Source: a virus. From it: DNA of 47,543 nt. Below are positions 5,200 through 46,691 of this stretch, piece after piece. The notes under the pieces were generated by a model. The model saw nothing but the letters and a program-made list of their open reading frames with translations. It was not told the DNA's origin and searched no databases. The stretch is from the IMG/VR virus record IMGVR_UViG_3300049893_002819, positions 1 to 47,543 of that record; one strand, given 5' to 3'. Each line of letters starts with the position of its first letter. The stretch's first letter is position 1. Made by a program: the position numbers and the translations under genes.

Positions 5200-5390
5200 C
5201 AGCGTATCCCCCTTTGCATCTTCATCATGAGTTCTGCGAAGAACCGGGCTTGCCCCTCTTGGTCAAAATCATCCTTCGTACCAATTCGAGGATTCAGTCG
5301 CATCTCAAGCCTCTGGCGGAACTCCTGCATAGGATCCCTCTGTTGTGGCTGCTGAGGCATCATCTGGGACTGAAGTCTCTGGTCAACCAA
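5199..5390 (-). CDS. Small Gln/Met-rich hypothetical protein
   Basis: This 63-residue protein starts at a TTG preceded by AGGAG with 6-base spacing, overlaps the end of the methyltransferase/glycosyltransferase gene by 8 bases and joins the next gene by TGATG. It begins with a Gln- and Met-rich stretch (MVDQRLQSQMMPQQPQQRD) and continues as a charged helix ending AELMMKMQRGIR. There is no membrane segment or known domain. Tight coupling on both sides supports translation. The function is unknown; it may be a small virion or assembly factor. Confidence 0.55.
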   Translation of the reverse strand: MVDQRLQSQMMPQQPQQRDPMQEFRQRLEMRLNPRIGTKDDFDQEGQARFFAELMMKMQRGIR

Positions 5391-6990
5391 CGGAGGCTCC
5401 TAGTTTCTCGCGCGGGATTGGCACGTGTATCACGTTCGGACCATTCAACGCTTTTCCAATCGCAACCCAGCAAGCCTCCGGAGGGATGTCCACTTGGCAC
5501 TGGGCTGTGCCCTCCCAGTACGCATCCTTGTCATCGTTCCGGTTGCAGTGATCCCAGTTATAGTGCATCTTGTGGCAGGGGTAGCAAGGAGTCTTCGTGC
5601 TGAAGAGAGCGAAGGTGTTTTTCCAGTCCCGGGTCAAGTTCTCATGGCTCGAGTGGCTCAAGAACACAATCTTCGGCATGTCTTCCATGCTCATGCCGCT
5701 CAGCACGCCGGTCTCCGGCCCCACGATGAGGTCACAGACTTGGGCGAATGCAAGTGTCTGGCGGATGCTCCATTGTCCCGCCTTCCGAATGATCCTCGGC
5801 TCGTTCTTCCAAGGCTCATCCAAGATCAGGCTCTTCGCGTCCCCCACAGTCACGATTTTGCACTCAGGATACACAAGCATCATCCGGGCGAAGATCTGGT
5901 CGATGTGGGGCCACACTTTGTGCACGCTCGAGCCATTCAGGACCCAGAGGATGAGAGGACTTGCCTTCATCTCAATCCTCTGTTCCACTGCCCAGTTCTT
6001 CTCCTCCAGCGAGGCGTAGAACTTCGTACGAGACTTCGTGTACACGATCTCCGCCAGCTCATGCTGGAACTCCACGTAGTTCGTGTTCAAGTACTTGTCT
6101 CGCACACTCTTCGGCCAGCGAGCCTGCACTCGATCCCCCAGTGTAAGCCAAGTGGCTTCCACACTCTCACTCAGGTTGATCCACCGATCATACTTTACTC
6201 TCTCGTAGTCCCAGAAGGTTCCGAGGTGTTGAGGGGGTACTTGATCTGTGTCTTGCAAGTACACTTCATCAATGTGAGGATCATGCTGGAGGACATCCCA
6301 CGCCCGCGGAGTAGTGTAGAGGCGGATGTGAAAGCCTTGCTTTTTGAGGCCGGGAAACACGCTGCAGGTCTGCAGGGCATCTCCCCACGCACCGTAACGA
6401 ACGACAGCTGCAAGCTTCTCAGGTCGTGGCTTTTTCCAAGTATGCTGGCGGCCGGCACCAGCTTCGAGCTTCCTAAACACTTGGAAGAAGCTGTACTCTT
6501 CCCTCTCATTTCGATCTTCATTCCGCAGGCAGTCCCAGTCCCCGCCGAACCCCTCCATCGCGTCGAGGATGTCCTGCGGGAGGAAATCATGCTTGTGGTC
6601 CTCGTTGCTTCCCGGCTTCCCCACATTCGGATAGAAGTCCTTGTGGGGGAGGTAAAGGCACAGGTGGCCGCCGACCTTCACAAGTCTCCACCACTCAGCC
6701 AGCGCGGTCTTGTAGTCCACGATGTGCTCAAGCAAGTGGCTCGAGAACACAAAGTCACAAGCACCATCCGCGAATTGAGGCAGCCTACTCGCATCCTCCA
6801 CAGTGATTTCAGGATTCATCTGGATGTTGAACAGCGCCGTGTCCTTCCGGCTATCCACTCCCACGAAGTGGGGAAACCCCTTGTGGGGACCGCACCCTAT
6901 ATCAAGGCCGAAGCCTCGAGTATAGGGTACGAGCTCCCAGAGCATCTTCCCGACTTCATTTCCCTTCGGGCCGTCTGCTCGCCAGACCAC
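5383..6990 (-). CDS. SAM methyltransferase fused to GT9 heptosyltransferase-like domain
   Basis: This 535-residue protein has two domains. Residues about 1-175 are a class I SAM methyltransferase: LDIGCGP (29-35) is motif I, GVD (44-46) precedes the acidic loop, and FSSHLLEHI (82-90) is the Methyltransf_11 motif. Residues about 190-530 resemble GT9 ADP-heptose:LPS heptosyltransferases: AVVRYGAWGDALQT at the start, a donor-site block LNGSSVHKVWP (351-361) and GPETGVLSGM (424-433), equivalent to the GT9 'GPxTG' motif. A CxxCH/C cluster near 469-482 is an extra. It starts at GTG directly after the previous stop. The plus-strand heptose operon could supply its donor. The acceptor is unknown; placement among capsid genes makes virion modification possible. 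Confidence 0.78.
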   Translation of the reverse strand: MVWRADGPKGNEVGKMLWELVPYTRGFGLDIGCGPHKGFPHFVGVDSRKDTALFNIQMNPEITVEDASRLPQFADGACDFVFSSHLLEHIVDYKTALAEWWRLVKVGGHLCLYLPHKDFYPNVGKPGSNEDHKHDFLPQDILDAMEGFGGDWDCLRNEDRNEREEYSFFQVFRKLEAGAGRQHTWKKPRPEKLAAVVRYGAWGDALQTCSVFPGLKKQGFHIRLYTTPRAWDVLQHDPHIDEVYLQDTDQVPPQHLGTFWDYERVKYDRWINLSESVEATWLTLGDRVQARWPKSVRDKYLNTNYVEFQHELAEIVYTKSRTKFYASLEEKNWAVEQRIEMKASPLILWVLNGSSVHKVWPHIDQIFARMMLVYPECKIVTVGDAKSLILDEPWKNEPRIIRKAGQWSIRQTLAFAQVCDLIVGPETGVLSGMSMEDMPKIVFLSHSSHENLTRDWKNTFALFSTKTPCYPCHKMHYNWDHCNRNDDKDAYWEGTAQCQVDIPPEACWVAIGKALNGPNVIHVPIPREKLGASVG

Positions 6991-13018: not shown

Positions 13019-14704
13019 TTAAGCACGTTGCTCCCACATCTTGTGGTAGGCCTGCTCGATGGCCTGGGGGTAGCCTTTCACCACAGGACTCTCGAGGAGC
13101 TCAGATCGGAGGGTCTTGCGAAGGTCCGCCAGCGCCCGGACATCTTGGGTTAATTCGACCGCTTTACGGACGTATTCTTCGTTCGTGTTTGCGATCCACT
13201 CCCGGCGACCCATCGCAGTCAGGACACTACTAGTGCTGCGACCAGACGCCTGGGTACCGTACTTCGTCACAATAGGTACACCCATGTAGAGCTGCTCCAT
13301 GCTCACAACCCCTCCACTGTGAGGGAAGGGATCAAGGATGATGTCAGCCTGCTGGTAGGCAAGCATATGATCCTGGTGGTTGGTGGAGATGGAGAAGAGG
13401 ACTCGGCGGGGATCAATGTCCTTGAGGATGCGGAGGACACGCTTCACGCTGTAGGGGCGCCGGTACGCATGGTCCTTCAGCTCGAGGCGGCTTTCCGGCA
13501 CAGCGAGGAGGATCTCTCTCCAAACAGCCAAGCACTCATCGCTGAATTTCTCGTACCGAGCGTAGCTGCCGAAGGTGAAATGCCCCTTCACGAAGTAGGG
13601 GAGCTGGCTTACACCTTTGAGATCGTAAGCTGGCGGCTTATACGTCACGACGCAAGGCACATCCCAAATCTTCTCTGCATAGTGGGGGCGCTCAGCCTCC
13701 GGCACAGCTACAGGGTCTGCGAGGAAGTAGTCAATCTCCGGGCAGCCAGTCCCATGGGCGAAGCCCCAAGCAGTTACTTGGATGGGAGCTGGCTTGCGGG
13801 TGAAGAGGCTCAGTCGGCCTCCATTTGTGTGGCCCGCGAGGTCCACGAGGATGTCAATGCGGTCTCTTCCAATGAGAGCATCTGCCTCTTCATCTGACAT
13901 CCTCGAGATGTCTCTCCACCGATCTCCAGCCGCATCCATGAAAGCCTTCGTCACGGGATCGGCTGCAGGGTCCACAGGGAGAGTGGAGTAGAAGAAGGGG
14001 AGGACCTTGCTTGTGTCGTGATTCAGCACGACAAGGCCGAAGATCATGCTCGCGCTATGGCACTTGAAGTCGCCAGAGACGTAGCCTACGCGCAGAGGGG
14101 CTACAGAACCGTTGATGCGACCCACTTGGTGGGTGTGCTTCTGGCCCTTGTAAGCGTTCGCCACGTACCAACCATCTCGCTTCTTGCGAAGGTCGGCGGG
14201 GGTAGCAGAGGTGAGCGTCTGGACGAAGCAGCTGTTGGGAGCTGCTTGGATGTGGGTGGGGTCTTCTGCGAGGATCTTCTCATAGTACTGGAGGGACTTC
14301 TCCGGCATCCCGGCAGTCGTCAAGATCGTGGCGAGGGCAAGCCAGGTTTCCTTGCAGGGAGCCACTTCCACACCGCTCTCAGCTGCCTTGAGCGCTTCAT
14401 CAATCCGGTCGGCCTCCAGACACATGAAGGCCCAGTTCATCCAGATAACGCCGTGCTTGCCTCCATCGAAGAGACTTGCTCGCTCGATAGTGAGGATAGC
14501 TTCATTCAGGTTTCCTGTCTGGGCGTAGAGGACAGCGAAGTTCTGTGTAGCAAGTGCGTGTGCTGGGTCAAGGCGGAGGGCTTGCCTGTAGTGGCGTTCA
14601 GCGTCAGAGAACTTGCTTGCAACTTGGGCTTCTAGGCCCAGGCGCATCCACTCGTCGGCTTGGTCAGACCCCTGCGGGGGGATGACGATGTAAGGTTGAG
14701 CCAT
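13019..14704 (-). CDS. TPR protein with GT41 (O-GlcNAc-transferase-like) glycosyltransferase domain
   Basis: This 561-residue protein has about four tetratricopeptide repeats (residues about 15-155; SDAERHYRQALRLDPAHALA is one) followed by a GT41 domain. Key blocks are LRVGYVSGDFKCHSAS (204-219, with the His that aligns to the conserved OGT histidine), VDLAGHTNGGR (287-297), PAPIQVTAWGFAHGTG (305-320), FGSYARYEKFS (378-388) and DIILDPFPHSGGVVSMEQL (454-472). This order matches bacterial OGT/SPINDLY-type enzymes that transfer a sugar from a nucleotide donor to Ser/Thr. The donor here is not known. Lying between the portal and fibre genes, it could glycosylate virion proteins, for example the repeat-rich neighbour. 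Confidence 0.9.
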   Translation of the reverse strand: MAQPYIVIPPQGSDQADEWMRLGLEAQVASKFSDAERHYRQALRLDPAHALATQNFAVLYAQTGNLNEAILTIERASLFDGGKHGVIWMNWAFMCLEADRIDEALKAAESGVEVAPCKETWLALATILTTAGMPEKSLQYYEKILAEDPTHIQAAPNSCFVQTLTSATPADLRKKRDGWYVANAYKGQKHTHQVGRINGSVAPLRVGYVSGDFKCHSASMIFGLVVLNHDTSKVLPFFYSTLPVDPAADPVTKAFMDAAGDRWRDISRMSDEEADALIGRDRIDILVDLAGHTNGGRLSLFTRKPAPIQVTAWGFAHGTGCPEIDYFLADPVAVPEAERPHYAEKIWDVPCVVTYKPPAYDLKGVSQLPYFVKGHFTFGSYARYEKFSDECLAVWREILLAVPESRLELKDHAYRRPYSVKRVLRILKDIDPRRVLFSISTNHQDHMLAYQQADIILDPFPHSGGVVSMEQLYMGVPIVTKYGTQASGRSTSSVLTAMGRREWIANTNEEYVRKAVELTQDVRALADLRKTLRSELLESPVVKGYPQAIEQAYHKMWEQRA

Positions 14705-16239
14705 TAGAAGAGATACCCTTGGATGACGACGTTACGGATGAAGTTTGCAGTAGAGCCTGTGAAGGCAATGCCGATGGTGGAGGGCCCCACAACGTCGTAG
14801 TAGCAGTTCTGGAGTTGCTCCTTCGTCACGCCAGCAGTCACCACCATGTTGACGTTGAGGCGACCTACAGTAACCATGGAGCCTTGGGTCCAGCTCGCAG
14901 AGGCGGAGAACTGCCCCATGAAGATGTCCATTGTGCCGCCAGCAACAGCAGAGGAGGCCACAACAGCTTGTATGTTCATCACTCGGAAGACCTTCCCGCC
15001 GGGAACAGCCCACTGGGTAAGAGCAGCCCCCGCACGATCCGGCCCTGTGAAGATTGTGAAGAGAAGAGTCGTGTTGACGGAGCCACCAGCAGTGGAGGTC
15101 ACACTGATGAAAACGGGGACGTACGCTTGGTCCTTATCTATCACAATCAGGGCAGTTGAAGCTTGTGCCACAGAACCTGCAGTGAACAACGCTCCACTCA
15201 CCGCTACTGTCTGCGTAGGGTTTAACCACACAGGAAGCCCAGTGACCGACACAGATGCTTGAGTCGTCACAGGCGCGACGTTGAGGATGCTTACAGTCCC
15301 TGTCGTGGTGCCCGCAATCGTAACTGTGACTGTAGTGGGATTCATAATCCACACAGCCTGGGCAGTACCAGTCGTCACACCAGTGGTGGTAATGAGCATT
15401 CCACTGACGTTCACAGTCACGCCGTTGGAGACAGTCACAGTTCCTGAGACTACCACAGGGACTGTGTTGAGGATGGTGCTTAGGGCAGTGATGCCGCTTA
15501 TCGCAATGATTGTGCCGATGGTCTGGCTGACAGCAATGGCAGAGATACTCACTGCCCCACTAATCGCCGGCATCGCAGAGATGCTCACGGCGCCTGAAAT
15601 CACCACAGTGTTGGAGACACTGATCGTCCCGCTCACCACAACTGTGTTGGAGATGCTCACTGTACCACTAACCTGCGTAGAGATGAGGACTGTCTGGCTG
15701 GCTCCCAGCCACACAAGGAGACCACTCATCCCAGAGGAACCAGTTGTGGAGAACCCAACGCCGGATACAGTCACAGTACCACTTACCACCGCACTGACAG
15801 ATACTCCTTGCTGAATAGTGACGGAAGCTCCAGCCACAGTGGGTGCTGTGTTGACAGTGAAGGTCGTCGGATTGATGGTGACTGTGCCGGAGACTTGGGC
15901 CACCACAGAGGCACCAGCTATTGTACCGGCGGTGTTTACAGTGAATGTCGTGGGAGCAATCGTGACAGTACCACTCACCTGCGCTACAACAGACACCCCT
16001 GGCACTACAGCCACAGAGCCATTCACCGTTACCGTGCCGCTCACTGCGGGCATGGCACTTATACTCACTGCACCAGAGACTCCAACCGCCCCGCTTACTA
16101 CTATCGTCCCATCAGCACCAATCCCAGTAGTGTCAAGCGCAGCCCCACCCACCAGCTTCATCTGCTGGAAGCCTACACCGCCAATGTCCTCGGCGGCGAC
16201 AGTGTAACTTGCGGTCGGATTTACAGGGACATTAGCCAC
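14704..16239 (-). CDS. Repeat-rich beta structural protein
   Basis: This 511-residue protein starts at GTG and overlaps the portal end by 8 bases. After a short leader, about 320 residues consist of degenerate repeats built on V-S-G-T/A-V-T/S-V/I (QVSGTVTI, NTVVVSGTIS, SGAVSISAMPA); one unit, VVAQVSGTVTIAPTTFTVNT, is present twice in tandem with small changes. Residues about 360-511 form a non-repetitive globular beta domain ending NFIRNVVIQGYLF. Ser/Thr-rich alternating strands suggest an extended beta fibre or stack. It is probably exposed on the head. The neighbouring OGT-like gene makes it a candidate glycosylation substrate; that is inference. Confidence 0.6.
   Translation of the reverse strand: MANVPVNPTASYTVAAEDIGGVGFQQMKLVGGAALDTTGIGADGTIVVSGAVGVSGAVSISAMPAVSGTVTVNGSVAVVPGVSVVAQVSGTVTIAPTTFTVNTAGTIAGASVVAQVSGTVTINPTTFTVNTAPTVAGASVTIQQGVSVSAVVSGTVTVSGVGFSTTGSSGMSGLLVWLGASQTVLISTQVSGTVSISNTVVVSGTISVSNTVVISGAVSISAMPAISGAVSISAIAVSQTIGTIIAISGITALSTILNTVPVVVSGTVTVSNGVTVNVSGMLITTTGVTTGTAQAVWIMNPTTVTVTIAGTTTGTVSILNVAPVTTQASVSVTGLPVWLNPTQTVAVSGALFTAGSVAQASTALIVIDKDQAYVPVFISVTSTAGGSVNTTLLFTIFTGPDRAGAALTQWAVPGGKVFRVMNIQAVVASSAVAGGTMDIFMGQFSASASWTQGSMVTVGRLNVNMVVTAGVTKEQLQNCYYDVVGPSTIGIAFTGSTANFIRNVVIQGYLF
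15204..16164 (-). repeat. Degenerate tandem repeats encoding VSGTVTV-type units
   Basis: The DNA repeats the pattern of ACTGTGAGTGGT-like codons (seen on the plus strand as accactcac/acagtc motifs) many times, with units mostly 8-24 codons long. Repeat boundaries are blurred by point changes. This region is prone to length change by recombination or slipped synthesis and is a place where assembly could have collapsed or expanded copies. Confidence 0.6.
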
Positions 16240-31327: not shown

Positions 31328-32647
31328 ATGAGTATTCTCAAGCTGCCCCTCGCAGCCATTCAAGTAGCCCCCAACCGCCAACGGAAGGAGATTGAAGGTG
31401 AAGCTCTTAGCGCGCTTATGGAAAGTATTGGTTCCGCCGGTCTCCTCCAGCCAATCGTTGTCAGAGAAGCTGGCGGCGTCTACACTCTCGTCGCCGGGGA
31501 GCGCCGCCTTCGAGCCATCTCCAACTTCGCCGGCCTTGCTCAACCCTATAGGTTTGGCGGAGCTGACTGGTCTCCTGAGTTCGTCCCCTGCATCTCCATC
31601 GGAGATCTCGACCCCCTCGCCGCGGAGGAAGCGGAACTCGAGGAGAATATACGCAGAGTTGACCTCACCTGGGAGGAAAGGGCAGCCGCCACTGCACGCC
31701 TTGCTGACTTACGACGGAGGAAGGCTGCAAGTCTGGGCGCCCAAGGACCAAGCGTGGCGGACATTGCCAGTGAGGTACGTGGAGCGTCCGAAGGCACTGC
31801 TCACGAAGCTACTCGTCGCGAGCTTGTACTGGCCCCGTTCCTCGCGGCGGGGGCAGAGCATCTCAAAGGTGCGAAGAGCCTCGACGAAGCGTGGAAAGCG
31901 CACCTCCGCCAGGAAGAAGTCCTCCGCAACCAAGCGCTCAGCCTCCAAGTAGGAGCCACCTATGGAAAACACAGTCATACCCTTCACCAAGCCGACTGCC
32001 TCCAGTGGCTCGCGGCCTGCCAGCCCGCTTCATTTGATGTTATCCTCACTGATCCGCCGTATGGCATGGGAGCTGATAACTTCGGGGATGCTGGCGGACG
32101 ACTCACCGGTCAGACTCACGTTTACTCTGACACCCCCGAAGACTGGCAACGGTTGGTTAGTGGACTGGCAGCTGAGTGGTTCCGAGTTGCCAAAGACCAA
32201 GCCCACCTCTACATCTGTTGTGACATTGATGGGTTCCACTTCGCGAGAGAAGCTTTAGAGGCCGCGGGGTGGTGGGTCCACCGCACTCCCATCATCAATT
32301 TCAAGAAAGATGGCTCCCGCGTCCCTTGGCCGCAGCACGGCCCCCAGCGAAAGTGGGAGCTGGTGCTGTACGCGAATAAAGGGAAGAAGCCAGTAACTCG
32401 CATCTACCCTGATATCATCGAGACGAAAGGAGATGACAATCTTGGACACGGAGCACAGAAGCCTGTTGACCTCTACGTTAATCTTCTTACTCGGAGCGTG
32501 CGTCCTGGAGATAGCGTTCTTGATTGCTTTGGTGGCACTGGTACTATCCTTGTGGCAGCCCACCAAATGCAGTGCCGAGCAACCTACGTCGAGCAAGACC
32601 CCAACTACTTCGCAATCGCAGTCAAGCGGCTCGAAGCGCTAGAATGA
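31328..32647 (+). CDS. ParB-like domain fused to beta-class DNA methyltransferase
   Basis: This 439-residue protein starts after AAGGAG. Residues 1-100 are a ParB/Srx-like domain with LVAGERRLRA (54-63). After a helical linker, the methyltransferase has TDPPYGMG (241-248, motif IV for adenine N6 or cytosine N4) and FGGTGT (401-406, motif I), with HGAQKPVDL (374-382) just before. The order IV then I marks the beta class. ParB-MTase fusions occur in many phages and may protect DNA from host restriction. The stop overlaps the polymerase start (ATGA). Confidence 0.92.
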   Translation: MSILKLPLAAIQVAPNRQRKEIEGEALSALMESIGSAGLLQPIVVREAGGVYTLVAGERRLRAISNFAGLAQPYRFGGADWSPEFVPCISIGDLDPLAAEEAELEENIRRVDLTWEERAAATARLADLRRRKAASLGAQGPSVADIASEVRGASEGTAHEATRRELVLAPFLAAGAEHLKGAKSLDEAWKAHLRQEEVLRNQALSLQVGATYGKHSHTLHQADCLQWLAACQPASFDVILTDPPYGMGADNFGDAGGRLTGQTHVYSDTPEDWQRLVSGLAAEWFRVAKDQAHLYICCDIDGFHFAREALEAAGWWVHRTPIINFKKDGSRVPWPQHGPQRKWELVLYANKGKKPVTRIYPDIIETKGDDNLGHGAQKPVDLYVNLLTRSVRPGDSVLDCFGGTGTILVAAHQMQCRATYVEQDPNYFAIAVKRLEALE

Positions 32648-34983
32648 GTGAAGTTGCTGGGGAAGGACCAATCCCCGCGAGGATCATGATCGTAGGGGAG
32701 GCGCCGGGCTTCGAGGAGGAGCGAAGCGGCCACCCCTTCGTAGGTGCGAGTGGCCGGGAACTCGACAAGATGCTCCATGAAGCTGGCCTCATGCGCAGTG
32801 AGTGCTTCACCACGAATGTCTGCCGCCATCGTCCTCCAGACAACAAGATTGAAGTCTGGCTCAGTAAAGTGAAGCGGGCGGGTAGCATCCCCCAGGGCTT
32901 CGTGAAGATGCGGAACCTCTGGGTCCATCCCTACCTCGAGTCCGGCTTCCAACGACTCCTCAAGGAGATCGAGCTTGTCAAGCCCAACGTCATTATTGCT
33001 CTTGGAAATGTGTCCATGTGGGCACTTACTGGTCGTTGGGGGGTCTCTAAGTGGAGAGGTTCCGAACTTCGGATTGATTGGGACTCAGATGGGCCTCATG
33101 TCCTCCCGACTTATCATCCCGCCTACATCCTCCGAGATTGGGCGGAGCGAGCTGCCACGGTGCGGGACTTGCGACGGGCAAGTACTCTTGCCTCCTCCCG
33201 AGCTAGCCGCAAGCCGGCGTGGTCTTTCATCATAAGGCCCACGTTCAAGCAAGTAGAGGACACCTTCCATGCTCTTATTGCCAAGCTCGATCAAGGCCCG
33301 CTCAAACTCACCCACGATCTGGAGACCCGTAATGGACACATTGCTTGTAGTGGAATCGCTTGGTCCAAGCACGAAGCCATCTGTGTCCCTTTTATGTGTG
33401 TCGAGAGACCCGACGGCTTTTGGACTGCTGAGCAGGAAGCTGCAATCCTTTGGCTTCACTACCGAGTCCTCCACCACCCCAATGCCAGAGTGGTTAACCA
33501 GAATTATCTCTACGACGCCCAGTACTGCCACAGATGGTGGCTCTTTACTGGCCGGTTCTGGAGAGATACAATGTTGGCGCATCACACTGCTTTCTGCGCA
33601 CTTCCGAAGGCAGTAGACTACCAAGCAAGCCTCTACTGCGAGCACTACGAGTACTGGAAGGATGATGGCCGGGATTGGGACCCGAAGGTAGGTGAGGACC
33701 AGCTGTGGGAATACAACTGTGTGGACTGTGTTCGCACTTACGAAGTAGATGACGTCACGTCTGCAACCATCACCCAGCTCGGCCTCGAGGAAGTGAACAA
33801 GTTCCAGCAAGACTTGTTCCACTGCACCCTCAAGACAATGAACTATGGTATCCGCCTGGATGCCGCCGCCAAGTCTGTGATGAAGCAGGAGCTTGAAGAA
33901 GCTGCTTCCAAGCGGGAGGCAGACCTCGCGGCCATCTTCGGCCACCCAGTGGACTACCGCAGCCCAGCGATGCTCATGAGGCTCTTCTACGAAGACCTCG
34001 CCCAGCCCCCGACCATCAACCGGAAGACGAAAAGGCCAACTATCAATGAAGAAGCTCTGGAGAAAATTGCAAAACGTGAACCCTTGCTGGCTCCTGTGGT
34101 TAAGAAGATCATCGAACTTCGGTCCATCGGGGTATTCGTCTCAACTTTCATCAATGCTAGACTTGACTTGGACTCTCGCTTACGCTGCTCTTTCAACCCT
34201 TGCGGGACGTACACATTCAGGTATAGTAGTAGTAAGAACGCCTTCTGGAACGGAACGAACCTTCAAAATATCCCTAAAGGAACTGAAGCCAAGGAACCAG
34301 AAGACTTAGAACTCCCGAACATCCGTAAGCTCTTCGTGCCAGACCCCGGCTTCACCTTCTTCGACATGGACCTGGACCGGGCGGATCTCCAAGTCGTGGT
34401 GTGGGAAGCTGATGACAAAGAAATGAAGCAGATGCTCCGCGAAGGTGTAGACATGCACAGCGAGAACGCCAAGGCCCTCGGAATCAGCCGACAGCTCGCC
34501 AAGTCTTGGGTCCACGGCACGAACTACGGGGGCGGACCTCGCACGATGGCGCAGACTTGCGGCCTCACAATCCACAAAGCCGAGCAGATGCAGCAGCGTT
34601 GGTTCCAGATCCATCCTGGTATCCGCCGGTGGCAGGAGCGTACAGCAGAGCAGCTCAAGCAAGGCGTCGTCTCCAACATCTTCGGCTACAAGTGGTATCA
34701 GTTTGACAGACCCAATCTCCCAGATGCCCTCGCGTGGCAGCCACAAAGCGTCGTTGGTCGGGTCATCAACACTGCTTGGCAACGCATCCACGCCCAAGCC
34801 CCCCACATCCAAGTCCTCATGCAAGTTCATGACTCTCTTGCTGGACAGTTCCCAAGCCACATGCTACAATCATCCCTCGAGACGCTCCGCACCCTCGCCA
34901 CAGTCACAATCCCATACCCTGACCCCCTCATCATCCCAGTCGGAATCAAGACGAGTGAAGTGAGCTGGGGTGATGCAAAGTAG
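32644..34983 (+). CDS. Uracil-DNA glycosylase / 3'-5' exonuclease / family A DNA polymerase fusion
   Basis: A 779-residue protein has three parts. Residues 1-190 match family 4/5 uracil-DNA glycosylases: GEAPGFEEERSGHPFVGASG (18-37) and HPAYILR (158-164). Next, a DnaQ-like exonuclease shows DLET (225-228), NYLYDAQY (287-294) and YNCVDC (357-362). The polymerase has TNLQNIP (538-544), motif A FFDMDLDRADLQ (573-584), motif B RQLAKSWVHGTNYGG (616-630) and motif C QVHDSL (727-732). Motif A has D-R-A in place of the usual Y-S-Q. SPO1 phage polymerase has a related glycosylase-like start. It should replicate the phage DNA; whether the glycosylase part is active is untested. Confidence 0.92.
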   Translation: MSEVAGEGPIPARIMIVGEAPGFEEERSGHPFVGASGRELDKMLHEAGLMRSECFTTNVCRHRPPDNKIEVWLSKVKRAGSIPQGFVKMRNLWVHPYLESGFQRLLKEIELVKPNVIIALGNVSMWALTGRWGVSKWRGSELRIDWDSDGPHVLPTYHPAYILRDWAERAATVRDLRRASTLASSRASRKPAWSFIIRPTFKQVEDTFHALIAKLDQGPLKLTHDLETRNGHIACSGIAWSKHEAICVPFMCVERPDGFWTAEQEAAILWLHYRVLHHPNARVVNQNYLYDAQYCHRWWLFTGRFWRDTMLAHHTAFCALPKAVDYQASLYCEHYEYWKDDGRDWDPKVGEDQLWEYNCVDCVRTYEVDDVTSATITQLGLEEVNKFQQDLFHCTLKTMNYGIRLDAAAKSVMKQELEEAASKREADLAAIFGHPVDYRSPAMLMRLFYEDLAQPPTINRKTKRPTINEEALEKIAKREPLLAPVVKKIIELRSIGVFVSTFINARLDLDSRLRCSFNPCGTYTFRYSSSKNAFWNGTNLQNIPKGTEAKEPEDLELPNIRKLFVPDPGFTFFDMDLDRADLQVVVWEADDKEMKQMLREGVDMHSENAKALGISRQLAKSWVHGTNYGGGPRTMAQTCGLTIHKAEQMQQRWFQIHPGIRRWQERTAEQLKQGVVSNIFGYKWYQFDRPNLPDALAWQPQSVVGRVINTAWQRIHAQAPHIQVLMQVHDSLAGQFPSHMLQSSLETLRTLATVTIPYPDPLIIPVGIKTSEVSWGDAK

Positions 34984-36507: not shown

Positions 36508-36717
36508 ATGAACTTCCAGCTCCTCGTAGATGAGTTCCTTGGACCAGGCAAGGCTACTGTCATCTCGAGCCAGGGTAACCGTCTGTTCCTCGCCAGCGCT
36601 GCAACCCCCAAGCAGATCTTCGACCTTGAGATCTGGCTCCGCGCCAAGCTCCACCAACCCATCGAAGTCCTAATGACAGAGAAGAAAGACATCAACGTCT
36701 TGAGGAGGATTAAATGA
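36508..36717 (+). CDS. Small hypothetical protein before carbohydrate operon
   Basis: A 69-residue protein begins MNFQLLVDEFLGPGKATVIS and continues with alternating strands and a helix, ending EKKDINVLRRIK. It joins the radical SAM gene by ATGA overlap. The family is unknown. It may be a small partner of the radical SAM enzyme, as some such enzymes have, but nothing else supports that. Confidence 0.55.
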   Translation: MNFQLLVDEFLGPGKATVISSQGNRLFLASAATPKQIFDLEIWLRAKLHQPIEVLMTEKKDINVLRRIK

Positions 36718-37745
36718 CCGACAAGTTCCGCATCGACAGCCATAAACTTCAGTTCCACCCCGCTAGGGTGGAAGAATGGAGGCAAGGCAAGGACCTCTGG
36801 GAAACTGCCAAGTCCATCTACCCCATCTACGTGGAAGTAAGCCCCGTAGGTGCTTGCAACCACCGCTGCACTTTCTGCGCAGTGGACTACCTCGGCTACA
36901 AGCCTATCTCCCTCGAGGCTTCCATGCTCGTGGACCGCCTTGAGGAGATGTCCTCCCTCGGAGTCAAGTCCATCATGCTCGCGGGCGAGGGAGAACCCCT
37001 CCTCCACAAGAAGATCAACCACATCGTCTTCGGAGCGCTCAATGCCCGCCTGGACGTAGCCTTCACCACAAACGGAGTCCTCCTCGACAAGCTCGAGGCA
37101 CTCCCTCAGTGCTCTTGGGTCAAAGTGAGTGTGAATGCTGGTTCCCGCGAGACCTACACCAACGTCCACAAGGCAGACCCCAAGGACTGGGATAAAGTCT
37201 GGAGGAACATCCGGGAAGCTGCAAAGTACAAAGGCAAGTGTACCCTCGGCATCCAGATGGTCGTGCTGCCGGAGAACGCCCACGAGATCCCCCTCCTCGA
37301 GGAGCTTGCGGCAGACGCCGGCGTGGACTACTGCGTGATCAAGCCCTACAGCCAGCACAAGCGAAGCATCAACAAGCTTGATCCCACGTGGAAGCCAGTT
37401 GCCCTTCAGATCTCTCGCAGCAAGACAGTGTTCCGGGAGGCTGCCTTCTCCACCACAGGTCCCACGTATACCAAGTGCAACGCTACTCCTTTCTTCTGGG
37501 CCTACATCACTGCTGCGGGAGACGTCTACTCCTGCAGCGCGTACATAGGGGACCCACGCTTCTGCCTCGGCAACATCAAGTCAGACATCTTCGAGGATAT
37601 CTGGGAGGGACCGGATAGGCAAAGGAACTGGGAACTCCTCACCAAGTATCTTGACATCTCCAAGTGCCGCACGAACTGCCGGATGGACAAAGCCAACCGC
37701 TACCTCAATGACTTCAGCGAGCTCCCCCATGTCAACTTTATCTAG
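36714..37745 (+). CDS. Radical SAM/SPASM enzyme, early-arm copy
   Basis: A 343-residue radical SAM protein has CNHRCTFC (C48, C52, C55), GEGEP (91-95) and a C-terminal SPASM-like set of Cys (C255, C274, C284, C318, C322). The sequence from residue 178 (LGIQMVVLPENA) to 210 (DYCVIK) lines up residue for residue with the late-arm copy. SPASM enzymes usually modify peptides or sugars, and those with dehydrogenase, epimerase or C-C activity occur in sugar pathways. It opens an operon of heptose-type genes, so a sugar substrate is likely. The exact reaction cannot be read from the sequence. Confidence 0.85.
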   Translation: MTDKFRIDSHKLQFHPARVEEWRQGKDLWETAKSIYPIYVEVSPVGACNHRCTFCAVDYLGYKPISLEASMLVDRLEEMSSLGVKSIMLAGEGEPLLHKKINHIVFGALNARLDVAFTTNGVLLDKLEALPQCSWVKVSVNAGSRETYTNVHKADPKDWDKVWRNIREAAKYKGKCTLGIQMVVLPENAHEIPLLEELAADAGVDYCVIKPYSQHKRSINKLDPTWKPVALQISRSKTVFREAAFSTTGPTYTKCNATPFFWAYITAAGDVYSCSAYIGDPRFCLGNIKSDIFEDIWEGPDRQRNWELLTKYLDISKCRTNCRMDKANRYLNDFSELPHVNFI

Positions 37746-38556
37746 CAACATCCTCGTCTGTGGAGACGCGATGGTGGATGAGTACTGGTATGGGGAAGTC
37801 AAGAGGATCTCTCCCGAGGCTCCAGTTCCCGTCGTCCGGGTCACGAGGAAGGAAGATCGCTTCGGCGCTGCTGACAACGTGGCGGCGAACTGCCACGCAA
37901 TGGGCGCTCGAGTGTTCCCCGCCACAGCTTACACCTCCCGCAAGATCCGAGTCGTTGGGCAGAACCAGCAAGTTGTCCGGGTGGACTTCGACGACTTCCT
38001 TACAGAAGAGGGGATCTCCAAGCTCGAGGCCTCCTTCCGCGAGTACCTCCCCCAGTGTCCCATCGTCATCTTCAGCGACTACGGGAAGGGTTCCTTGCGA
38101 AGCATTCGCTCCCTCATCTCTGAAGCCAAGACCGCGGGGGCTATTGTCCTCGTCGATCCCAAGGGCCATGACTACCGCAAGTACAGAGGGGCAGATCTCA
38201 TCAAGCCGAACGTCTTCGAGATGCGGGAAGTTTGTGGAGGCTGGTCCAGTGAGGATGAACTCGCCCACAAAGCAGAGCAGCTGCGGAAGGATGCTGGAAT
38301 CTCCGCTATCCTCGTTACGCGCGCAGCGGAGGGAATGAGTCTCTTCGATGCGGCGGGGGCAAGCCACTTTCCTGCTGTCGCCCGGGAAGTCTACGACGTG
38401 ACTGGTGCCGGCGACACAGCCATTGCGGCCTATGCCTGTGCGTTGAGTAGAGGCTTCGGTCCGAAGATGGCTATTGGCTACGCGAACAAGGCCAGTGGTA
38501 TTGCCGTCGCTCATTTCGGCACAGCAGTAGTTAATGGCAAGGAGGTGTTTGGATGA
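37729..38556 (+). CDS. HldE N-terminal-like heptose-7-phosphate kinase
   Basis: A 275-residue PfkB-family kinase starts MSTLSSNILVCGDAMVDEYW. Blocks VKRISPEAPVPVVRV (24-38), QNQQVVRVDFDDF (78-90), SDYGKGS (116-122), VDPKGHDY (142-149), IKPNVFEM (158-165) and VTGAGDTA (224-231) match HldE/RfaE kinase, which phosphorylates heptose-7-phosphate at C1. D229 is the expected catalytic base. About 40-50 residues between GARVFPATA and SRKIRVVGQ are shorter than usual in HldE. The start ATG overlaps the radical SAM end. A partner adenylyltransferase gene follows directly, whereas in bacteria both are often one chain. Confidence 0.87.
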   Translation: MSTLSSNILVCGDAMVDEYWYGEVKRISPEAPVPVVRVTRKEDRFGAADNVAANCHAMGARVFPATAYTSRKIRVVGQNQQVVRVDFDDFLTEEGISKLEASFREYLPQCPIVIFSDYGKGSLRSIRSLISEAKTAGAIVLVDPKGHDYRKYRGADLIKPNVFEMREVCGGWSSEDELAHKAEQLRKDAGISAILVTRAAEGMSLFDAAGASHFPAVAREVYDVTGAGDTAIAAYACALSRGFGPKMAIGYANKASGIAVAHFGTAVVNGKEVFG

Positions 38557-38990
38557 AACTCGTACTTGCTCACGGCACTTTTGACTGGCTCCACTACGGC
38601 CACGTTGTTATGTTGAAGGAAGCCCGCAAGCTCGGAGACTTCCTTGTAGTGAGTCTCACTGCAGACGAGTTCATTGCTAAGGGTCCAGGCCGCCCTGTCT
38701 TCAGCGAGGATGAACGATTCAGGTTCCTCAGTGAACTGCGATGTGTAGATACTGTATTCATCTGCTATGCGGAGAGTGCCATCCCCGCCATCGAGGCCTT
38801 CCGCCCGGCAGTCTACGTGAAGGGCGGAGACTACCTCATGGAGGACAAACTCGGCCACCTCGCAGCAGAGAAGGAGCTGACCGAGAAGCTCGGCGGCCGC
38901 CTGCACATCCTCGACTCATCCCCCAAGTATAGCAGCACTGACATCATTCGGAGGCTTCATGCAACTCGCTCGCACGATACGCCAAGCTAA
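38553..38990 (+). CDS. HldE C-terminal-like nucleotidyltransferase
   Basis: A 145-residue cytidylyltransferase-fold protein starts MKLVLAHGTFDWLHYGHVVM, containing the HxGH-type site (TFDWLHYGH). GRPVFSEDERFRFL, YVKGGDYLM and KYSSTDIIRRL match HldE-C (RfaE2), which moves AMP onto heptose-1-phosphate to form ADP-heptose. The best ribosome site (AAGGAGG) is in the kinase end, and the ATGA overlap couples them. Together the split pair could make an ADP-sugar. The phosphatase GmhB, needed between the steps, is not in this window and would have to come from the host. Confidence 0.88.
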   Translation: MKLVLAHGTFDWLHYGHVVMLKEARKLGDFLVVSLTADEFIAKGPGRPVFSEDERFRFLSELRCVDTVFICYAESAIPAIEAFRPAVYVKGGDYLMEDKLGHLAAEKELTEKLGGRLHILDSSPKYSSTDIIRRLHATRSHDTPS

Positions 38991-39363
38991 GCGTGTCTAC
39001 ATCATCGGCAATGGAGGCTCATATGCCAACGCCATGCACTTCACGAACGATCTCCTTCTCTGTGGCATACGTGCCCATTGCCTTGATCCAGCGACTCTCG
39101 CGGCCTTTGCCAACGATTTTGGCTACGAGACAGTATTCACTAAGTGGCTGGAGGTTGTCGGTGAGCGTGGAGACCTCCTCATCGCACTCAGTGGGAGTGG
39201 TAAGTCCCCCAACATCCTCCACGCCCTCGAGATTGCCAAGCAAATCGGCATGATTGTCTGGCCGATCTTCGGAGCGGACACCGGCCTCGATATGCAAGCG
39301 TCCGAGGAAGAGCAGCTTCACATCACCCACAACGTCATGCGCTGGTTGAGGAGCAACAAATGA
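38959..39363 (+). CDS. GmhA-like SIS-domain sugar isomerase
   Basis: A 134-residue SIS-domain protein starts MQLARTIRQAKRVYIIGNGG. NGGSYANAMHF (18-28), FANDFGYETVFTKW (50-63) and SGSGKSPNILHAL (78-90) match phosphoheptose isomerase GmhA, which makes D-glycero-D-manno-heptose-7-phosphate from sedoheptulose-7-phosphate. It lacks the usual N-terminal helix pair (about 40-50 residues) but keeps the C-terminal helix with HITHN. CGGAGGCTTC precedes ATG, and it overlaps the nucleotidyltransferase by 32 bases. A neighbouring pair of thiamine-diphosphate enzyme halves may relate to its substrate or product. Confidence 0.8.
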   Translation: MQLARTIRQAKRVYIIGNGGSYANAMHFTNDLLLCGIRAHCLDPATLAAFANDFGYETVFTKWLEVVGERGDLLIALSGSGKSPNILHALEIAKQIGMIVWPIFGADTGLDMQASEEEQLHITHNVMRWLRSNK

Positions 39364-39938
39364 CCCCACAGGCCCTCATTGCTTTCGAAGAGGAAGTAGC
39401 GACTCTCTTCGAAGCGAAGATGATCCCAGGCCCCATCCACCTCAGTGGAGGGAACGAAGAAGCTCTCATTAACATCTTCAGCAACATTCGTCGAGATGAT
39501 TGGGTGTTCTCCACTTGGAGGAACCACTACCATGCACTACTGCATGGAGTCCCCAGAGATGAGATTCTCGAGCAGATCATCTTCGGTCGGAGTATGAACT
39601 TCTCTTCCCCCAAGCACAAGTTCTTCACCTCCGCCATCGTGGGAGGGATCTGCCCACCCGCCGTAGGCGTGGCGGCAGCGTGCAAAAGGCGCCGAGTTGA
39701 AACAAGAGTCCACTGCTTCGTAGGAGATATGGCAGCTTGCACAGGAGTGTTCCACGAAGCGAGGAGTTACGCGGAGGGGCACAACTTGCCAGTTATGTTC
39801 TACGTGGAGGATAACGGGATGAGCACGAACACTCCCACGATGAAGGCCTGGGGGGAGGACCTTGTGTCGAGGGTCCGTCGATACCCCTACACCCGGAAGT
39901 ACCCCCACACAGGAGTCGGAAAATGGATTCAGTTCTGA
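39360..39938 (+). CDS. Small E1 alpha-like thiamine-diphosphate enzyme subunit
   Basis: A 192-residue protein is shorter than the usual E1 alpha (about 330-400). It keeps WRNHYHALLHG (53-63), IVGGICPPAVGVAAA (93-107), GDMAACTGVFHEA (122-134) and EDNG (150-153), the conserved positions of the thiamine-diphosphate site in which GDG...N is the usual form; here the third Gly is Met. Free-standing E1 alpha/beta pairs are known from surface-sugar clusters. No E2 or E3 is present, so acyl transfer to a sugar or keto-acid decarboxylation is more likely than a full dehydrogenase. It is followed by a 172-residue E1 beta-like gene. Confidence 0.75.
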   Translation: MTPQALIAFEEEVATLFEAKMIPGPIHLSGGNEEALINIFSNIRRDDWVFSTWRNHYHALLHGVPRDEILEQIIFGRSMNFSSPKHKFFTSAIVGGICPPAVGVAAACKRRRVETRVHCFVGDMAACTGVFHEARSYAEGHNLPVMFYVEDNGMSTNTPTMKAWGEDLVSRVRRYPYTRKYPHTGVGKWIQF

Positions 39939-40441
39939 GCTACAAGCAGGCCCTCACAGAGGCTATGACGATGCTTGCGCGCCGCGCAGACACTCTCTTC
40001 GTGGGGCAAGGAGTCAAGTATCGCTGCCATGGGATGTTTGATACGCTGGAGGGTGTGCCTGAGGACCGCCGGATTGAGTTTCCAGTGGCCGAGGACTTCC
40101 AAGCAGGCTTCTGCATTGGCCTTGCGCTCGAAGGCTACCTCCCTATCTGCATCTACCCGCGGTGGGACTTTGCGCTCCTCGCCGCGAACCAGATAGTGAA
40201 TCACTTGGATAAGCTCCCCACCTTCGGCTGGAAGCCTCACGTAATCATCCGAGTGGCTGTGGGGCACACCAAGCCTCTGAATCCCGGCCCTCAGCACAGC
40301 CAGGACCACACAGACGCCTTCGCCTCTATGTGCCACAACCTCGTCGTGGTGAGGGCCCAGAATCCAGTCCAGGTTCATGGCTTCTACAGTATGGCTGCCT
40401 CCAGCCGCCTTTCCTACATCATCGTGGAGATGCCCCAATGA
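39923..40441 (+). CDS. Small E1 beta-like thiamine-diphosphate enzyme subunit
   Basis: A 172-residue protein matches only the pyrimidine-binding domain of E1 beta; the usual C-terminal transketolase domain (about 130 residues) is missing. RIEFPVAEDFQAGFCIGLAL (50-69) holds the catalytic Glu (E57), and GPQHSQDHTDAF (122-133) is the substrate-side loop of the family. GGAG lies seven bases before ATG. It should assemble with the E1 alpha-like gene product. Either a trimmed 2-oxoacid enzyme or a mini transketolase is possible. Confidence 0.75.
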   Translation: MDSVLSYKQALTEAMTMLARRADTLFVGQGVKYRCHGMFDTLEGVPEDRRIEFPVAEDFQAGFCIGLALEGYLPICIYPRWDFALLAANQIVNHLDKLPTFGWKPHVIIRVAVGHTKPLNPGPQHSQDHTDAFASMCHNLVVVRAQNPVQVHGFYSMAASSRLSYIIVEMPQ

Positions 40442-41340
40442 GAAAGTACTCTCTCCTCCTCACAGCCCGCGACAAGGTGCGCCATGTAGCTGTAGCTGTG
40501 AAGTCCATGTTTGCGCAGACTGGCCCACCTATCGAGCTTCTCCTAAGCGACCAGGGATCTGTGGATGGAACCCGCGAGATCCTCGATCACCTCGCATCCA
40601 CCTATGATGGCCCTCACAAAGTTCGACGGATCAATTGCCCCTTGACTGACGTAAAGGGAATGCCCGGCCTTAACGCTCACGTGGGATGGGCTATGGACCA
40701 GACAGACGCTGACGTGGTAATGCAGCTATCTGCTGACGACTACGACCTGGCCCAGCGGAGCGAGCTAACCATCGCGGCCTTCGAGGAGCACAACCCCAGC
40801 ATGGTTCTTGGCAGCCTCTACTACGTGGATGAACGGATGGTCTACCAAGGTGAAACCATCGACTACTACCCCACAGACTCCTGGTCCACCCTCGAGGACC
40901 AGCTAAAGCGCCACATGGGGGGATCCACTTGCCAAGCCTGGACCCGCGAGTTCTGGAACACAGTTGCGCCACTGGAAGGCGTCGGTAGCCTGGATGTGAG
41001 CCTTCCCCCTCTCGCTGTCCTCCTCAAAGGGGCATACTGGCTCCGCCCCAAGATGCACGCTTACCGGCGGGTGGACAGCGCCACGAACACTGGTCTCGAG
41101 GGAGTCCGCAACAGCTACCCGGAGGGAAGCCCCCAGCGAGACCAAGCAGAGGAACTCATACACTTCCAAGTAACCTCTGGCTACTACTTCGTCCTTGCTC
41201 GGATGACGAGTCTAAACCTCGGAGATGCTGCTGCCCACCACTCCCTCGCCCAAGCTATCCTCGACCGGAACGCTTCTTGGCATCACGTCCGCTGCAAGAT
41301 GTCCTTCGACAAGACCTCGCCCCTTCCCTTCAAGACTTAG
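40438..41340 (+). CDS. GT2 family glycosyltransferase
   Basis: A 300-residue protein starts MRKYSLLLTARDKVRHVAVA at the ATG that overlaps the E1 beta stop; a longer upstream frame exists but is a shadow. LLLTARD and VKSMFAQTGPPIELLLSDQG (21-40 region) followed by GSVDGTREIL show a GT-A fold start. VVMQLSADDYDL (about 98-109) holds a D-D pair replacing the usual DxD, and the middle has TCQAWTREFW. It lies at the end of the heptose-type operon and could add the operon's sugar. Its stop overlaps the convergent holin-like gene by 4 bases. Confidence 0.85.
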   Translation: MRKYSLLLTARDKVRHVAVAVKSMFAQTGPPIELLLSDQGSVDGTREILDHLASTYDGPHKVRRINCPLTDVKGMPGLNAHVGWAMDQTDADVVMQLSADDYDLAQRSELTIAAFEEHNPSMVLGSLYYVDERMVYQGETIDYYPTDSWSTLEDQLKRHMGGSTCQAWTREFWNTVAPLEGVGSLDVSLPPLAVLLKGAYWLRPKMHAYRRVDSATNTGLEGVRNSYPEGSPQRDQAEELIHFQVTSGYYFVLARMTSLNLGDAAAHHSLAQAILDRNASWHHVRCKMSFDKTSPLPFKT

Positions 41341-42334: not shown

Positions 42335-43435
42335 TTAGATGAAGCTCGCATGAGCTGGCTTCACGAGTGGAGGGATGAAGGCCAGGCCCTTGGCTCGAGC
42401 ATCCAGCGCTTCATTCGTCTTGTGCTGGAGGCAGAGAGCCCCACAGGACTTGCGGGCATCAAATTGGTCTGAGGCCAAGTACCTTACCACCTCCCAGTAC
42501 CTATCCCCCGCGAGGATGTCCTTAAACCTCTCCTCCACTATGTTTCCGATGTGGAACTTCCTGTACCTGTCGTTAAAGAGGAAGCCACAGGGCGCAACCA
42601 GCCCGGAACCGGAGATTTGAAGGATGAACGGCGGGCCATAGCATCTCGAGTAGCTGCGTTGGCTACCTGCACGGATCTTCGACCACTTGACCACAACATG
42701 ATACTCCTCGTCGGACAGTCGCTCAGCTTCATGAAGAGTCTCCTCTAAGGCCGCATACTTGTCGTACTCCACTCCCAGCTTCCCATCCACATCATCACTG
42801 CAGTGTTTAATGACAAGGTAATCTGGCCGCAGCTCTGCGCCGAGGCGTGCGAGGGGAAGGATCTGGTCAGCGTACCGTGGGTCAAGGACCATCTGCATCC
42901 CTACAGTGCAGTGGAGACCTCGCTCCTTCTTTACTTGCATCATAATCTGGATGTTGTGGCAGACTCTCTCGAACCAGCCTTCCTTCGCTCCCATAATTTC
43001 CCTGTAGCGGCCTGGCTCCCCCGCCGAGAAGTTAATCCTCACATACGTGAGGGCCGGCAACAGCTCCTCTGCCCACTCTCTCGTGAAGAGCAGCCCATTC
43101 GTGCCCACAGCCATATCAATCCCCAGGCCATGACCCCGCAGCACAGAATGGCGGAAAGCAGGAGAAATAGTAGACTCCCCATCACTGACAAAACTAATCC
43201 CCTGCACACCCACCTCAGCGCAGTCCTCAAGGAATCCATCCATCACCTCCTTCGTGATAGGCTTCCGTTCGTTCTCCTGCATAGAAGCGTAGCAGAAGTG
43301 GCAGGCGTAGTTGCATTGCCGCGTGAGAGCCATGTCGATTGTGATAGGGGCGATCCTCTCCCCGCGATCCCACGCCGCGAGCCTCTCGCTGTGCCAAGCA
43401 ACCTTCGTCCCATCCAGCGTATCATCCCAGCTCAT
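42335..43435 (-). CDS. Radical SAM/SPASM enzyme, late-arm copy
   Basis: A 366-residue radical SAM protein has CNYACHFC (C41, C45, C48), SDGEST (84-89) in the position of GGEP, and C-terminal Cys (C265, C283, C331, C335) as in SPASM. VGMQMVLDPRYA and DYLVIK lie at exactly the same residue numbers as in the early copy, and both share a CY/CN-x-x-PF, G-x-V-x-x-C, GNI and FKDI-type end. The two are therefore ancient duplicates. It lies between an ejection gene and the lysis genes, overlapping the ejection gene by 4 bases. It may modify a late product or a sugar. Confidence 0.85.
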   Translation of the reverse strand: MSWDDTLDGTKVAWHSERLAAWDRGERIAPITIDMALTRQCNYACHFCYASMQENERKPITKEVMDGFLEDCAEVGVQGISFVSDGESTISPAFRHSVLRGHGLGIDMAVGTNGLLFTREWAEELLPALTYVRINFSAGEPGRYREIMGAKEGWFERVCHNIQIMMQVKKERGLHCTVGMQMVLDPRYADQILPLARLGAELRPDYLVIKHCSDDVDGKLGVEYDKYAALEETLHEAERLSDEEYHVVVKWSKIRAGSQRSYSRCYGPPFILQISGSGLVAPCGFLFNDRYRKFHIGNIVEERFKDILAGDRYWEVVRYLASDQFDARKSCGALCLQHKTNEALDARAKGLAFIPPLVKPAHASFI

Positions 43436-45338: not shown

Positions 45339-46691
45339 TTACCTCCCCACAATAGCGTCAGCAGCCTCGAGGAGCTGATTCCTCGCAGCCCCCGCTCGGA
45401 CACCCGGAGTCCCCAAGCGAGTTCTGTGAGCCTCAGTATACGCCTTCGTCAACCTCTCTTTCGCCTCCTTCGTAAAAGTCGCGATCTCTTCCAGAATCCG
45501 ACGAATCTCTTTCTCATCCACTGAGCGATTGAGACGCCCCAAGTAGCTCTCCAGTCTCTCCCCTTCCTTCTCCGTCAGCGCACCGAAGCTAGAAGCTCCC
45601 TGCGCAGACATCGCTTTGAGGTCTCGAAGAGTATCCACCATCACTCGATTCTTGAGGTCTTCCAGGCGGTTCTGGGCTACAGCTCCAGCTTGCCCAGGTA
45701 CGTTTGGAATCACCCCCGCAAGCCCTGTGATCCGTCCGAGCTTCGCAGCCTTCACTTGTTCAATCTGCCCCTCCAATCGCTTGTACGCCGCCAGTCCAGT
45801 CTGGTACGCAGATGTATCCTTCGCAAACTTCTCTTGCGACTTCTGTCCTTCAAAGTCTGCAATCCACGCTTTCCGATCCTTTGGGGGAAGCTTTGCAATC
45901 TCTGGCGGCATGGCGGGGTGGAAGAAAGGATCAGCCGCAGGAGTAGGGGCAGGTGTCGGTACTGGCGCAGGAGCAAAGCCTCCTTGCTGGGGAGCCTGTA
46001 CTGGGGCTTGCGCTTGCGGAGCCAACTCCACACTCGGTCCAGGCTGATAAGGCTCATCCAGCGTCATCCGCCCGCCGCCAGCAGCACCAATCGCCTGCAC
46101 TGCAGCCATGTTCCCAGGGCTAAGCCCCGGCGCGGTGATCTGCTGGGTTTGGGGAGCCTGCGGCATAGGCACGTTCACGTCTACTGGCCGCATCCCACTC
46201 GCATCTCCCGTCTCCCAAAACAGCTTCACTCCACCCTGCCTCGCAGCCTCCGCGTTGAGGAGGAGCTGCTTCTGCCGGAACTCGTTCTTGATCGCGTTCT
46301 GCTCCCTTGCATCCTTCGCATTCTGCAAGCGAAGGGCATAGTTCATCTCAAACTGGCGGGCGATCTGCTGCAAGCGAGTGGCTGTTGCCTCCTTCGTGGT
46401 TGCCTCATGCAGCTTCACGTTCTGGGCTTGCTGCTTCCAGTGGAGAACATCCTTTGGAGAGCTGTAGCGGGCTCCCCACAGGATAAGTTGATCCTCCGTC
46501 GGAGTCGGCCCCAGGGCATCAAGCTCCGCCCTCGCCTTCTTCTGCATCTCAGCTTCTCGGAAGGCACTCTCAAGCCGAGAAAGCCCAAGCCCCCTCTGCA
46601 CATTCGCATCAGTGGCTGCGATGTTCCTATCCTCCGCGGCCATCGCGGGGCCAATGACTGGGAGGCGGGCAAGTACCGGATCAAGTGGCAT
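45339..46691 (-). CDS. Ejection/internal virion protein
   Basis: A 450-residue helical protein. The N-terminal half is charged coiled coil (ALRLQNAKDAREQNAIKNEF), the middle is Pro/Gln/Ala-rich (APQAQAPVQAPQQGG), and the C-terminal part, residues 330-425, holds a domain common in phage internal proteins: GLAGVIPNVPGQAGAVAQ, then ASSFGALTEKEGERLESYLG. That domain is often found just upstream of large ejection proteins. It should be packaged and injected with DNA. Confidence 0.75.
   Translation of the reverse strand: MPLDPVLARLPVIGPAMAAEDRNIAATDANVQRGLGLSRLESAFREAEMQKKARAELDALGPTPTEDQLILWGARYSSPKDVLHWKQQAQNVKLHEATTKEATATRLQQIARQFEMNYALRLQNAKDAREQNAIKNEFRQKQLLLNAEAARQGGVKLFWETGDASGMRPVDVNVPMPQAPQTQQITAPGLSPGNMAAVQAIGAAGGGRMTLDEPYQPGPSVELAPQAQAPVQAPQQGGFAPAPVPTPAPTPAADPFFHPAMPPEIAKLPPKDRKAWIADFEGQKSQEKFAKDTSAYQTGLAAYKRLEGQIEQVKAAKLGRITGLAGVIPNVPGQAGAVAQNRLEDLKNRVMVDTLRDLKAMSAQGASSFGALTEKEGERLESYLGRLNRSVDEKEIRRILEEIATFTKEAKERLTKAYTEAHRTRLGTPGVRAGAARNQLLEAADAIVGR

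Follow-up and report, generated by a model that had tools for sequence, protein, structure and literature searches.

The complete IMG/VR virus record IMGVR_UViG_3300049893_002819 (47,543 bases, class linear; referred to below as the window, the whole stretch of DNA that was analysed) carries a seven-gene operon at positions 36714–41340 (+), in which relatives of the ADP-heptose enzymes are combined with radical S-adenosylmethionine (SAM) and thiamine diphosphate (ThDP) enzymes. A further radical SAM gene, rSAM2, lies at 42335–43435 (-). Sequence comparisons indicate that these genes almost certainly form a conserved phage sugar module that co-occurs across many phages, and there is a roughly even chance that it makes a modified, probably two-carbon-branched, nucleotide-activated heptose that GT2 and GT41 glycosyltransferases transfer, most likely to a virion protein. 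The enzymes are of known kinds, and what appears to be new is that they are combined with rSAM2 and that this set recurs in phages. A first-pass annotation of the sequence had proposed a sugar operon of the heptose type that also includes radical SAM and ThDP enzymes, which is supported here, and had known of no described phage pathway with this combination. Literature searches (phage with ADP-heptose and radical SAM, and similar) likewise found, in the library of papers searched, no account of such enzymes being combined with rSAM2 or of the set recurring in phages, but this phage shares the gene set with others, as a recurrent module of uncultured phages.

The seven genes lie head to tail on the + strand and overlap at every junction (-17, -4, -32, -4, -16 and -4 bases). 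All are intact, and the families first assigned to them are borne out by their coordinates and by Pfam and NCBIfam profile searches, on which the gene identities rest; better start positions were adopted for the kinase (37729) and the GT2 gene (40438). In order, they encode a radical SAM/SPASM protein, rSAM1 (36714–37745; PF04055, 4e-22; PF13186, 7e-9), a heptose 7-phosphate kinase of the HldE domain I type (37729–38556; TIGR02198, PfkB/rfaE domain I, 4e-89; HldA 4e84, 4e-73), a nucleotidyltransferase of the HldE domain II type (38553–38990; TIGR02199, rfaE domain II, 5e-33), a GmhA-like sedoheptulose 7-phosphate isomerase of 134 aa (38959–39363; TIGR00441, 4e-25; GmhA structures, up to 2e-19), a minimal E1 alpha with only the ThDP diphosphate-binding domain (192 aa, 39360–39938; TIGR03182, 2e-26), a minimal E1 beta with only the ThDP pyrimidine-binding domain (172 aa, 39923–40441; PF02779, 2e-10), and a GT2 glycosyltransferase (40438–41340; PF00535, 5e-11). 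Orthologs of rSAM1 and GT2 occur in another virus locus (L075), and of GT2 also in L109. The eighth member, rSAM2, which has an auxiliary-cluster domain and is the best-conserved marker of the module, had been overlooked in the first-pass annotation.

The window's rSAM2 is 51–52% identical to genes that directly adjoin those for HldE, GmhA, E1 alpha and E1 beta in other phages. A scan of IMG/VR with an rSAM2 alignment returned 52 related virus loci, most of them with heptose and ThDP genes within a few kilobases, and a ThDP gene lies no more than 700 bp from rSAM2 in 34 of 45 loci. When 47 records were searched whole, a nucleotidyltransferase was found in 34, a heptose kinase in 31, an SIS isomerase in 28 and an E1_dh domain in 30; for comparison, a search of 50,697 annotated phage records found E1 alpha relatives in 10. 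Since the relatives of rSAM2 adjoin the same heptose and ThDP genes in most of the 47 records, it is considered part of the module, and a chance assembly is ruled out by the dozens of divergent records that retain the gene set. The distances between module genes also correlate across loci (Mantel r 0.39–0.94), as expected for a co-inherited module. A search for the same gene order elsewhere, as had been suggested, thus found the module in dozens of uncultured phages and the E1 pair in sugar clusters of metagenome-assembled genomes (MAGs).

The IMG/VR scans, which work with short peptide patterns, do not amount to a census, and many of the records are fragments. Relatives were obtained with the E1 alpha sequence and with the rSAM2 alignment, while single-sequence scans with rSAM2, GT41 and GT2 gave no matches. 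Among annotated phages, no relative was found of GT2, of the window's GT41 protein (50,697 records) or of its Ser/Thr-rich protein (the latter two described below), and rSAM2 had relatives only at 31% identity or less. Terminase relatives, taken as a control set, came to only three records, a number from which no background rate can be estimated; among them was a close relative of the window, G050. One rSAM2 locus comes from a bacterial genome (L069, a Sulfuricaulis MAG contig) and has the kinase, nucleotidyltransferase and E1 genes, with no isomerase found; a phage portal gene in this locus identifies it as a phage or prophage. By eye, its neighboring genes include 4,6-dehydratase-, sugar 2-epimerase- and acetyltransferase-like genes, as in nonulosonic acid pathways.

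The isomerase, kinase and nucleotidyltransferase belong to the same families as the enzymes of the ADP-L/D-glycero-D-manno-heptose pathway (GmhA, and HldE or HldA/HldC), and most catalytic motifs are kept. The kinase retains the DVTGAGD motif when aligned with HldA (4e84), and is about 30 residues shorter in the middle of the protein, while the nucleotidyltransferase retains HxGH (as HYGH) and STD. All three fall below the NCBIfam equivalog cut-offs (298.7 vs 345, 113.9 vs 181.5 and 88.6 vs 209.5 bits), and so are relatives rather than certified orthologs. The phage operon also differs from the known pathway in its added radical SAM and ThDP enzymes and in that neither GmhB nor HldD was seen; the absence of the GmhB phosphatase had been remarked on earlier, and no GmhB-like protein was found among the open reading frames (ORFs) scanned, a scan that did not cover every ORF.

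Active sites are not lost: the alignments show catalytic motifs retained in the E1 pair as well as in the kinase and nucleotidyltransferase. E1 alpha keeps GD...N and RNH, with R54, H56, D123 and N152 invariant (compared with pyruvate dehydrogenase E1 alpha), and E1 beta keeps PVAE and QH, with E57 and H125 invariant. The ThDP-binding and catalytic residues of the pyruvate dehydrogenase complex E1 are therefore present in the phage pair, but that enzyme has full-length subunits, a transketolase C domain and an E2 partner. The phage E1 alpha matches E1_dh only over positions 4–172, the C-terminal third being missing, E1 beta matches Transket_pyr only and is without the transketolase C domain, and no lipoyl partner E2 is found in the operon. 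With these domains and E2 missing, the reading of the pair as part of a pyruvate dehydrogenase complex was rejected.

Loci without E1 mostly have an acetolactate-synthase-type ThDP enzyme adjoining rSAM2. Among the 47 records, 30 have E1, 11 have a strong acetolactate-synthase-type match and none has both (hypergeometric probability 7e-7 if the records were independent). The exchange has occurred in more than one phage group. A group with a Mu gpT-like capsid contains both types, and one of its members has a split transketolase in the ThDP slot, immediately following rSAM2 (L100, 9975–11785). In the window's own group, G050 is closely related to the window (terminase 79%, major capsid protein 91% and primase 83% identical), but its operon at the same place reads kinase, isomerase, acetolactate-synthase type, rSAM2, nucleotidyltransferase and GT2, without E1 and with no separate ortholog of rSAM1. 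Since the two types exchange in one slot, a single ThDP step appears to be integral to the module. In L109 (7094–8759) and L128 (about 14070–15710), the acetolactate-synthase-type enzyme is split at the same point into two overlapping ORFs, possibly a true two-subunit form.

Two routes to a two-carbon sugar branch have been described, one using the pyruvate-dehydrogenase-like pair AviB1/AviB2 and the other the acetolactate-synthase-like flavoprotein YerE (PMC4425429, PMC4753412, PMC10338323). The same two ThDP types thus fill one slot in the sugar clusters for avilamycin (AviB1/AviB2), paulomycin (Pau11/Pau12) and yersiniose (YerE), and this match lends support to the earlier guess of a two-carbon transfer. 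In those systems the keto sugar comes from a 4,6-dehydratase or decarboxylase, whereas the phage would use a radical SAM enzyme and a heptose to make it, and the phage E1 subunits are minimal by comparison with AviB1/AviB2 and Pau11/Pau12. The ThDP step probably modifies the sugar itself and does not serve to supply its precursor; that the sugar carries a two-carbon branch falls a little short of an even call.

In rSAM2, the CX3CX2C cysteines (C41, C45 and C48) are invariant among 43 sequences, and C265, C283, C331 and C335 nearly so, the latter four suggesting one auxiliary cluster. An AlphaFold2 model (pLDDT 92.5) has DesII as its best fold match in the PDB, with BlsE and BtrN among the other matches. 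DesII removes the amino group of one TDP-sugar, yielding a 3-keto sugar, and also acts as a dehydrogenase on TDP-quinovose (PMC11434129). All three share the fold and the CX3CX2C motif with rSAM2 and take sugar-type substrates, but their identity to the phage enzyme is only 14–18%. A two-carbon-branching ThDP enzyme needs a keto sugar, and a DesII-like rSAM2 would fit such a step. In the proposed pathway, the isomerase, kinase and nucleotidyltransferase would convert sedoheptulose 7-phosphate to a nucleoside diphosphate (NDP)-heptose, with the phosphatase supplied by the host, and the DesII-like radical SAM enzyme would oxidise or deoxygenate a sugar carbon to give a keto sugar. Next, the E1 pair (in relatives, the acetolactate-synthase-type enzyme) would decarboxylate a 2-oxo acid, probably pyruvate, and add the two-carbon acyl unit to the ketone. 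The resulting branched sugar would be transferred by GT2, joined in this phage by GT41.

The late-strand transferase (13019–14704, -) was first described as GT9-like, an assignment that was rejected, as the protein has TPR and GT41 domains like OGT and SPINDLY (PF13844, 7e-40; SPINDLY 7y4i, 3e-72). It aligns with SPINDLY over 540 residues, including the regions of the active-site histidine and lysine. It resembles OGT/SPINDLY and their bacterial relatives in domains and catalytic region, but differs in that its gene is a phage late gene and adjoins that of a Ser/Thr-rich, virion-type protein. This candidate acceptor (14704–16239, -) is a repetitive Ser/Thr/Val-rich protein (26% S+T) that adjoins both the GT41 gene and the portal gene, and its C-terminal domain has a beta-rich model of moderate confidence with unspecific viral matches. 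It occurs in 11 of the 47 rSAM2 records, and GT41 in nine, all nine of which also have the Ser/Thr-rich protein (4e-8 if independent). A GT41 rather than a GT9 enzyme points to protein glycosylation, and suggests virion O-glycosylation. The target would most likely be a virion protein, with the Ser/Thr-rich repeat protein as the leading candidate, although the case for a virion target stands slightly below evens. GT2 may nevertheless be the main transferase. Between the same flanking genes, G050 lacks the segment 10071–16239 (-), which holds a Ser/Thr-rich tail protein together with GT41 and the repeat protein, so that the segment looks like a mobile unit.

Several observations weigh against the proposed pathway. 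The records are related to one another, so the probabilities given above overstate independence, and one 68 kb record (L102) has rSAM2 without any match to E1, acetolactate synthase, isomerase, kinase or nucleotidyltransferase. The SPASM peptide modifiers SuiB and SkfB rank just below DesII in the rSAM2 fold search, and the GmhA-like isomerase has Asp at the catalytic Glu65 position, with its C-terminal His180 region left unaligned by HMMER. Although the operon and GT2 are present in G050, GT41 and the Ser/Thr-rich repeat protein are both missing there, which makes the GT41 pair an associated rather than an obligatory unit. The main cautions on a two-carbon branch are the minimal size of the E1 subunits and the transketolase of L100, a type that transfers a ketol and not an acyl unit. 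That split transketolase would suit a different role for the slot, in which the ThDP enzyme joins a two-carbon unit to ribose 5-phosphate and so supplies sedoheptulose 7-phosphate to GmhA. The product would then be an ordinary ADP- or GDP-heptose, and the job of the radical SAM enzymes a separate one; the placement of a GmhA-like isomerase directly before E1 alpha–E1 beta in three Chloroflexi-type MAG loci agrees with this. Such precursor supply is nonetheless unlikely, as 41 of the 42 records with a recognised ThDP gene have the E1 or acetolactate-synthase type, both 2-oxo acid families, and hosts normally possess transketolase. The same E1 pair is also present in epimerase-rich sugar clusters where no heptose gene was found, and a radical SAM gene adjoins E1 in an unrelated huge phage (LR756501) as well.

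The destination of the sugar can also be read differently. Heptose is a core sugar of lipopolysaccharide, GT2 is the transferase conserved within the operon (58% identical in G050), and related cyanophage and MAG genes lie in surface-glycan-like clusters, all of which would fit transfer by GT2 to the lipopolysaccharide or capsule of the host, for instance as a barrier to superinfection. However, the module lies within the head genes (GroES-like, Mu gpT-like capsid) in one large group, the GT41 enzymes whose function is known act on proteins, and no flippase is seen in the operon, which leaves a surface glycan rather less probable than a virion protein. Phages are known to glycosylate DNA bases, and hypermodification of phage DNA had been listed in the first-pass annotation, but no pyrimidine hydroxymethylase, thymidylate-synthase-like or TET-like gene was found among the ORFs scanned with Pfam, and this option is highly improbable. 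In its most specific form, the proposal is of a hitherto unknown radical-edited, two-carbon-branched (nine-carbon) nucleotide sugar made with interchangeable ThDP enzymes, and an OGT-like transferase that O-glycosylates a Ser/Thr-rich virion protein; in all its parts together this is rather unlikely. If true, phages would build a bespoke higher-carbon sugar instead of borrowing host sugars, and viral biochemistry would gain both carbon-branching by ThDP enzymes and a radical SAM step on sugar nucleotides. Were the Ser/Thr-rich protein the acceptor, it would provide a viral counterpart of OGT-type protein O-glycosylation. The exchange of E1 and acetolactate-synthase types at one locus is a natural experiment, and the chemistry is directly testable.

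Related islands are found elsewhere. Cyanophages S-SM2 and P-TIM68 have, as in the window, E1 alpha–E1 beta (here fused), an HldE-type kinase, a nucleotidyltransferase and an isomerase in one island, but these islands are larger, with epimerases and a Zn-alcohol dehydrogenase, and no rSAM2 relative was found in those loci. The same minimal E1 pair is also found in sugar clusters of bacterial and archaeal MAGs, where NDP-sugar epimerases often accompany it. In the 735 kb genome of LR756501, the E1 beta, radical SAM and E1 alpha genes are contiguous, and the genes flanking them are C-methyltransferase-like and glycosyltransferase-like. In the window, a methyltransferase-domain protein is encoded near the capsid gene (5383–6990, -); as other phages have methyltransferases after rSAM2, it may modify the sugar. 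Elsewhere in the window are an N6/N4 DNA methylase fused to a ParB N-terminal domain (31328–32647, +), a family A DNA polymerase with a fused N-terminal domain of the uracil-DNA glycosylase superfamily (32524–34983, +), and a protein (45339–46691, -) that matches a PHROG described as released from the phage upon host infection (3e-14).

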